A DNA stretch of 64,000 nucleotides. Source: Haladaptatus sp. ZSTT2. Its GTDB lineage: Archaea > Halobacteriota > Halobacteria > Halobacteriales > Halococcaceae. Below are positions 27,041 to 28,311 of the stretch, one piece after another (the stretch's first letter is position 1; each line of letters starts with the position of its first letter). The position numbers and the translations under genes were made by a program. Location of the stretch: the NCBI RefSeq assembly GCF_037081775.1, contig NZ_JBAMHQ010000001.1, positions 930,001 through 994,000 on the forward strand, in the 5' to 3' direction. Below the pieces are notes generated by a model that saw only the letters and a list, made by a program, of their open reading frames with translations, was not told where the DNA came from and searched no databases.

Positions 27041-27631
27041 CTAGAAGTCCACGGGGCAGCCGTTTATCTCGCCGCCGCGCATGCCTTCTGCAATCCAGTA
27101 GATAGAGAGCAGGAGCGTGACGAGCGCGAGGAGGGCGAATTCGAGGCCGTCGAGCGGGAGGAAGCTGAGCGATACGGAGATACCGAAAAGCGAGAGCAAG
27201 CCGACGATGAGCACGGAGCCACACGCCGCACAGCCCGCCCCGAGCGTGCCGAGGACGAGGCCCGCAACCCCAGAACTGCCCTGGCGCACCGAGAGATCGT
27301 GTTCGCGCAGGTGGTAGGTGACCATCGCAATGTCGACGCCAAACAGCAGCGCGATGAGTACGAGAATCGAGCCGACGAGCAGGTCGAACGAGTCGCTCAC
27401 GAACGGGTACAGCCCCGAGAGCAAGGCAAGTTGATTTTCGAGTGGGAGGGTTCCCGAGAACAGCGCGAAGCCGACGAGGTCAGGGTTGAGCGAGAAGACG
27501 AACAGTGTGAGACCGAAAAACGCGCCGACGAAGGTCACGACGGCGTAGAGCGGAATGGTGACGACGAGCCGGGCGGTGCGCGCCATCAGTCGCCAGTCGC
27601 GCCCGCGGGTCGGCAGTCGGACGCGGCTCAT
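27041..27631 (-). CDS. polytopic membrane protein with an intramembrane CxxC, coupled to a DsbA-like lipoprotein
   Basis: A 196-residue membrane protein with hydrophobic helices near 22-48, 85-105, 121-150 and 160-183. The third helix opens with GTLGAGCAACGS, placing Cys134 and Cys137 in a CAAC at the membrane edge; a further Cys192 is near the C-terminus (NGCPVDF). The family is not one I can name with confidence. Its ATG overlaps the TGA of the DsbA-like gene (27628-27631), so the two are translationally coupled. A role as redox partner of that thioredoxin-fold protein is inference from the CxxC and the coupling. Confidence 0.75.
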   Translation of the reverse strand: MSRVRLPTRGRDWRLMARTARLVVTIPLYAVVTFVGAFFGLTLFVFSLNPDLVGFALFSGTLPLENQLALLSGLYPFVSDSFDLLVGSILVLIALLFGVDIAMVTYHLREHDLSVRQGSSGVAGLVLGTLGAGCAACGSVLIVGLLSLFGISVSLSFLPLDGLEFALLALVTLLLSIYWIAEGMRGGEINGCPVDF

Positions 27632-28311
27632 AGCTGGAGGGCGTTTTCGAACACCCGCACGTCTTGGGCACCTTGTATCTGCGTTTGGAACTCGCCGTCT
27701 AAGAACAGGTAGAACGTCGGCGTGGCGCTCGCACCGGCGGCTTTACCGGAGCTTAGGTCGAGTTGCACGGCGTCGTCGTACACCTTCTCGCGGGCGTCGC
27801 TGACGACGGCTGCCGCATCTACGTCGGTCGCGTCGGCGAGGAACTGTTCAGTTCGTTCAAGGACATTCGCTTCCGCGAACGACGACTGGTCTGCATAGTA
27901 GTGGTCTTTCAGCGTCCAGAAGGCGTCCTCGTCGCGGGCGTAGGTGGCTTCGAGCGCTTGGACGGCGGGCTTCCCCCACGGGTAGATGATGGGGTAGACC
28001 CTGAACGCGAACGCGACGTTTCCGGTGTCGATGTGCGTTGCTTTGAGTTCGGGGAACGTGTTCTGCTCAAACCGGCGGCACGTCGGACACGACGGGTCTT
28101 CGTAGGCGACGATGAGCGCCTCTTGGTCTACCGACCCAAGGATGGGCTGGGCGTCGATGTGCTCAAGCGCGGGGTGGGTCTTCGACGTTTCAGTAGTGGT
28201 GGATTCGCCGTCGGTTTCCGGAGACCCGGCGTCGCTCGCGCCGCCGAGACAGCCAGCGAGCGCAGCAACCCCGGTGAGGGCGGTTCCCGCGAGGAAGCGT
28301 CGTCGATTCAT
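27628..28311 (-). CDS. DsbA-family thioredoxin-fold lipoprotein
   Basis: Exported thiol-disulfide protein of 227 residues. The N-terminus MNRRRFLAGTALTGVAALAGC is a Tat signal (RRRFL) with lipobox Cys21, followed by a Thr/Ser/Glu-rich spacer. The active-site motif is C75-P-T-C78 in YEDPSCPTCRRF, and the cis-Pro loop is ASATPTFYLF, as in DsbA/DsbG/Thioredoxin_4 proteins. It should act on the outer face of the membrane as oxidase or isomerase. It is the first gene of a coupled pair with the CAAC membrane protein. Confidence 0.88.
   Translation of the reverse strand: MNRRRFLAGTALTGVAALAGCLGGASDAGSPETDGESTTTETSKTHPALEHIDAQPILGSVDQEALIVAYEDPSCPTCRRFEQNTFPELKATHIDTGNVAFAFRVYPIIYPWGKPAVQALEATYARDEDAFWTLKDHYYADQSSFAEANVLERTEQFLADATDVDAAAVVSDAREKVYDDAVQLDLSSGKAAGASATPTFYLFLDGEFQTQIQGAQDVRVFENALQL

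Follow-up and report, generated by a model that had tools for sequence, protein, structure and literature searches.

Two adjacent genes on the minus strand of the stretch analysed here (64,000 nucleotides of the Haladaptatus sp. ZSTT2 genome, hereafter the window) encode a DsbA-like lipoprotein and a small membrane protein. The pair, both CxxC motifs and a further cysteine of the membrane protein, Cys192, are conserved, the DsbA lineage is distinct, and the membrane half falls into none of the known families. Its probable role, which we infer from sequence, is to carry electrons, or possibly a soft metal ion, across the membrane together with the DsbA. With a confidence somewhat short of even, we propose that the pair works as a dedicated thiol relay of the envelope, most likely a reductive one. 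An earlier note on this DNA had suggested a haloarchaeal redox relay in which the membrane protein re-oxidizes or reduces the DsbA; what it observed is confirmed and its general idea finds partial support, the scope now reaching beyond haloarchaea and the re-oxidant reading being weakened.

The gene pair and its DsbA-like lipoprotein

The gene for the DsbA-family lipoprotein (227 aa; 27628-28311, minus strand) shares an ATGA (27628-27631, minus strand), a 4-nt overlap of its stop codon and the following start codon, with the gene for an unclassified membrane protein of four predicted helices (196 aa; 27041-27631, minus strand). The open reading frames, their ATGA coupling, and the CPTC, CAAC and Cys192 described in the earlier note are all present on the minus strand at the positions given here. 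The motifs are not chance occurrences, as the CxxC of each protein is conserved, in a clade of 58 DsbA sequences and in 69 membrane-protein sequences, respectively.

By its profile, its CxxC and its cis-proline the first protein is a member of the DsbA family, whose thiol oxidase activity it may share. It matches Pfam PF13462 (Thioredoxin_4) with 76.6 bits against a curated cut-off of 23.2 (E 3.4e-21), and its sequence starts with a leader combining a twin-arginine signal and a lipobox. Its only cysteines are the lipobox Cys21 (codon at 28249-28251, minus strand), kept in 50/58 members of the paired DsbA clade, and those of the CPTC active site (28078-28089, minus strand), Cys75 (58/58) and Cys78 (57/58). 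Pro198 of an ATPT motif (codon at 27718-27720, minus strand; 57/58) is presumably the cis-proline known from the family. The residues between the active-site cysteines vary among the paired DsbAs (CPTC, CHNC, CPRC and others). The nearest solved structure is that of Bacillus BdbD (E 9.5e-13), while ScsC-type metal and copper-resistance proteins are among the weaker matches in the structure set. In a phylogenetic tree, the DsbAs linked to the window clade, to haloarchaeal paralogues and to bacterial relatives form three separate groups with 100% support, and the DsbA that is linked to DsbB in the window's own genome falls outside all three.

The membrane protein

The membrane protein contains exactly three cysteines: Cys134 and Cys137, forming the CAAC motif (27221-27232, minus strand) of the third hydrophobic segment, and Cys192 (27056-27058, minus strand), located past the last helix. 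We collected 42 loci of the family from one scan of genome contigs, and more from 60 related genomes. Of 69 membrane-protein sequences, 67 retain Cys134 and Cys137 and 65 retain Cys192, the exceptions being one degenerate tandem copy and sequences with a frameshift or truncation. Comparison with paralogues 26-30% identical leaves P27, G124, G133, C134, A135, C137, G138, P159, G162 and C192 invariant, and at 25-30% identity the invariant residues (numbered as in the L082 relative) are Gly71, Gly93, Cys103, Cys106, Gly107, Pro124 and Cys153, including all three cysteines.

Neither the window copy nor its relatives matched any Pfam or NCBIfam family. The earlier note could not assign the protein to DsbB, VKOR or CcdA, and this judgement is upheld both by these scans and by profile-profile comparison (hhalign), in which the three families reach at most 2.5%. 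The known membrane partners of DsbA proteins belong to few families, DsbB, VKOR and DsbD/CcdA/ScsB. DsbB and VKOR require a second, extracytoplasmic cysteine pair, and the transmembrane domain of CcdA/DsbD has six helices with cysteines in helices 1 and 4. Pfam gives no match between the membrane protein and DsbB (PF02600; hhalign <1%), and with Cys134, Cys137 and Cys192 only, the protein lacks the two pairs of that family; likewise it matches neither the VKOR profile (PF07884) nor its four-cysteine pattern. No match was found to CcdA/DsbD (PF02683; hhalign <=2.5%), and four helices are predicted, not six. Searching the PDB with the family profile returned nothing beyond one chance-level match, 3dxs, and a Foldseek search of two models against the PDB gave no match at E <= 0.001, which is weak evidence as the models are of medium confidence around the CxxC. 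No relative was found in the viral contigs searched, and our literature search found no paper on haloarchaea that joins DsbA with DsbB, or DsbA with thioredoxin and a membrane protein.

The AlphaFold2 model of the window protein (pLDDT 75) contains four helices. The earlier note placed the CAAC at the opening of the third helix, which is now uncertain: in the window model helix 119-149 is continuous and bears the motif about 15 residues inside, with pLDDT 50-58 there, whereas in the model of a bacterial homologue the helix breaks at 114-118 and restarts right at the CxxC. The two models concur on the helices and differ on this break, but under either one the CxxC is predicted to sit within the membrane and not at its edge. 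The mean number of arginines and lysines is 6.3 in the N-terminus, 1.4 in loop 1 (35 residues), 1.35 in loop 2 (17 residues), 0.03 in loop 3 and 1.3 in the C-terminus. From this pattern both termini are predicted to lie inside, and Cys192 is consequently predicted to be cytoplasmic; the topology as a whole is a prediction from charge bias and a medium-confidence model.

Conservation of the pairing and bacterial relatives

Across 63 measured loci, a DsbA gene lies directly upstream of the membrane gene, on the same strand and within 81 nt, in 61; the exact 4-nt overlap occurs in 31, and two loci have the DsbA on the opposite strand. Neighbourhoods of 15 kb, taken from genomes sampled independently, include a DsbA in 21/21 cases for the window clade and in 20/20 for the distant haloarchaeal paralogues, against 0/20 control stretches. 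Since no further neighbour besides DsbA is conserved in the window clade, the pair itself is the unit. Across haloarchaeal genomes the two genes and the CxxC motifs of both proteins are thus conserved together, a point that the earlier note had proposed to check, and the outcomes that it named as counting against it, an unconserved CAAC, a membrane gene mostly found without DsbA or a structural match to an unrelated transporter, did not occur. One copy, on a Natrononativus plasmid (L149), keeps all three cysteines and has no DsbA within 5 kb. A degenerate tandem copy (L067:1453-2031) has lost the three cysteines and has no adjoining DsbA, an intact pair being located close by in the same genome. 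Elsewhere, a truncated second C-terminal half with its CxxC (L031:6677-6901) was observed about 1.1 kb downstream of an intact membrane gene.

The family is not confined to haloarchaea, the scope given in the earlier note. A relative in a metagenome-assembled genome labelled 'bacterium' (L043) pointed to related genomes of small size (about 0.4-1.3 Mb), and 13 of 142 such genomes carry the family. The short bacterial form directly follows a DsbA gene; no DsbA is found in 6 of the 14 bacterial neighbourhoods, one of which ends at a contig edge, and these mainly hold fused forms of about 500 aa. These longer forms (L083:532-2181, L086:478-1971, L087:466-1965, L088:321-1829 and L090:1345-2844) carry a cysteine-rich C-terminal part (YRPCC...QDCNHGSA), and in L083, L086 and L088 they adjoin a gene for a CCCKCWRW protein.

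Bacterial members are found in copper and metal resistance islands. A metal P-type ATPase is encoded within about 8 kb of 10/14 bacterial loci and in 0/12 control stretches; the query proteins were partly drawn from the same loci, hence the comparison with controls outweighs the raw count. Other neighbours encode multicopper oxidases, CsoR/RicR-like repressors, HMBD copper ATPases, DUF305 and DUF5676 proteins and CopY/BlaI-like regulators, and one bacterial copy directly precedes a MerA-like fragment. Copper or metal genes lie near the haloarchaeal paralogues in 5/20 neighbourhoods, and neither metal nor mer genes were found in the 21 neighbourhoods of window-clade orthologues. A metal function for the window clade is accordingly unsupported by gene neighbours.

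A proposed thiol relay and its alternatives

In the relay that we propose, the membrane protein would be the membrane partner of the DsbA-like lipoprotein, which would act on the outer face through its CPTC. Electrons from a cytoplasmic thiol donor would pass to Cys192, then to the intramembrane Cys134/Cys137 and finally to Cys75/Cys78, keeping the DsbA-like protein as a dithiol, in the way that ScsB maintains ScsC or CcdA its thioredoxin-like clients. Disulfide exchange between the two proteins and the direction of electron flow are inferred. A transmembrane relay is favoured by the predicted cytoplasmic position of Cys192 together with the intramembrane CxxC. The reductive direction is favoured because the genome encodes a separate canonical DsbA-DsbB operon (contig 1, 2408432-2409377), because Cys192, the one conserved cysteine beyond the CxxC, is predicted to lie in the cytoplasm and because the copper context of the bacterial relatives resembles that of ScsB-ScsC. 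The constancy of the DsbA pairing in both haloarchaeal groups, set against DsbA-free controls, the lack of any other conserved neighbour at the orthologue loci, the invariance of all three cysteines even in distant relatives and the distinct clades of the paired DsbAs argue for such a relay, as does the L067 copy, which lacks its cysteines and its DsbA alike. Against it, the cytoplasmic side offers a single cysteine and not a pair, a CcdA-like protein encoded elsewhere in the genome could supply reductant, the L149 copy keeps its cysteines and the six bacterial neighbourhoods keep the membrane protein without any DsbA, and the topology is predicted from a medium-confidence model and a charge bias, the outer loop 1 also having 1.4 arginines and lysines.

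The bacterial islands require that a metal relay be weighed beside an electron relay. In a system like MerP-MerT, the CxxC of the DsbA-like protein would bind Cu(I) or another soft metal and hand it to the intramembrane CxxC, then to Cys192 and to a cytoplasmic acceptor; we consider this unlikely, though it is the strongest of the alternatives. Its geometry equals that of the published MerT relay, in which the metal passes from MerP Cys33/36 to the intramembrane Cys24/25, the cytoplasmic Cys76/82 and then MerA (PMC5715351). The ATPases of the bacterial islands, the copy abutting a MerA-like gene and the metal genes near a quarter of the haloarchaeal paralogues (5/20) also point this way, and Cu(I) is bound by DsbA proteins of the ScsC type (PMC8900818), while the window-clade orthologues are never found near a metal gene (0/21).

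No Pfam match to MerT (PF02411) was found in 20 members scanned singly or in the bacterial members, yet in profile-profile comparison MerT outscores every other family tested. The profile of the whole family reaches 83-85% probability against MerT, with reversed controls at 3-4%; depending on the alignment used, however, the value ranges from 39 to 85%, the haloarchaeal orthologues alone give 1.4%, and the score hangs on small alignments in which one bacterial member weighs heavily. Moreover, the near-palindromic GCAACG, nearly identical when read backwards, inflates scores to the point that reversed family members (about 52-56) outscore MerT (about 41). Since these reversed-sequence controls within the family score so high, firm kinship with MerT was rejected as unproven, and we treat it as a lead.

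In a third reading, which we find improbable, the membrane protein would be a counterpart of DsbB or VKOR: it would re-oxidize the DsbA-like protein, and its Cys134/137 would hand the electrons to a membrane quinone. The order of a DsbA gene followed by that of its membrane partner matches the canonical DsbA-DsbB operon of the same genome, and BdbD, the closest solved relative of the DsbA-like protein, is an oxidase; but the three cysteines leave no extracytoplasmic second pair as needed by DsbB and VKOR, and neither a profile nor a fold match was obtained. We also considered the redox background. No VKOR was found in the genome of the window; a further DsbA-like protein with CPYT in place of CxxC is encoded at 1138947-1139477. 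Of 145 haloarchaeal genomes, 58 contain the family (33 of them a close orthologue), 61 contain DsbB and 29 VKOR. Uncorrected for shared ancestry, DsbB is enriched in genomes with the orthologue (21/33 vs 40/112, p 0.005), VKOR is depleted (1/33 vs 28/112, p 0.005), and the presence of either shows no association (22/33 vs 62/112, p 0.32). The VKOR depletion would suit a re-oxidant, though shared ancestry can explain it. The idea of a replacement re-oxidant with a distribution complementary to DsbB and VKOR was rejected in view of this DsbB enrichment and the missing association with either family, and the genome counts do not look like DsbB replacement. The separate DsbA-DsbB operon and the 21 of 33 orthologue genomes with DsbB together make a simple DsbB substitute unlikely. 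Of the redox relay put forward in the earlier note, the reductant half is therefore the one we favour, the other half being weakened by this operon, the DsbB-enriched genomes and the predicted cytoplasmic Cys192.

Finally, a structural anchor or thiol-unrelated transporter merely co-transcribed with the DsbA, its cysteines binding metal or stabilising the fold, would fit glycine-rich helices serving for packing, but is very improbable given that the cysteines are among the few residues invariant from archaea to bacteria and that the DsbA pairing recurs in three separate clades with otherwise unrelated neighbourhoods.

If the thiol relay is real, it would add a further and widespread family of DsbA partners, one that Pfam and NCBIfam lack and that is annotated as 'hypothetical protein', and a new route by which three cysteines carry reducing equivalents or soft metals through the membrane. 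More broadly, and with slightly less confidence, we suggest an uncatalogued class of minimal transmembrane conduits for thiol electrons or soft metals, which haloarchaea have in common with small-genome bacteria, every conduit being paired with a DsbA of its own, and possibly reflecting an evolutionary link between MerT and DsbA partners. Thanks to the copper islands of the bacteria, the choice between electron and metal can be put to the test, and as a small system of two proteins the archaeal pair suits the same question.

Relation to known systems

The pair resembles DsbA-DsbB, BdbD-BdbC and VKOR systems in that a dsbA gene is followed by that of a small polytopic CxxC partner, and its DsbA half is a true PF13462 protein closest to BdbD. 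Unlike DsbB, BdbC and VKOR, which have four or more cysteines, the membrane half has three, and it matches them neither in sequence, nor in profile, nor in fold.

With MerT, the membrane protein has in common a cysteine pair inside a helix, a Pro/Gly hairpin and a cytoplasmic-side cysteine after the next helix. It differs by an extra N-terminal half of two helices, by a CxxC instead of CC, by a DsbA partner in place of MerP and by the lack of mer genes near the archaeal copies. A third small gene encoding a protein with a C-terminal cysteine ('hypothetical protein' in RefSeq) often lies near the haloarchaeal paralogue loci (L162:5201-5710, L163:5368-5787, L164:5312-5728, L188:6726-7166 and others). 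Its family (GCPICN...FDPLRP) is likely homologous to the membrane protein (hhalign 94-96%, 131 columns) and also resembles MerT (hhalign 82%, 49 columns), but it is shorter, has a CxxC-like C-terminal pair and is absent from the window clade. A 72-residue MerF/MerT-like ORF (LCCLGP...CSTC; L199:8975-9193) was also noticed near a gene for a dihydrolipoyl-dehydrogenase-like flavoprotein.

In ScsB and DsbD, a CcdA-type transmembrane domain is joined by two extracytoplasmic domains, whereas the membrane protein has four predicted helices with one CxxC and one additional cysteine, and no similarity to the DsbD_TM profile. Like ScsB-ScsC and DsbD/CcdA, however, the pair combines an outside DsbA-like CxxC protein with a membrane partner bearing intramembrane cysteines, and the association of ScsB-ScsC (in which ScsB keeps the DsbA-like, Cu(I)-binding ScsC reduced; PMC8900818) with copper resistance recurs here in the bacterial relatives.
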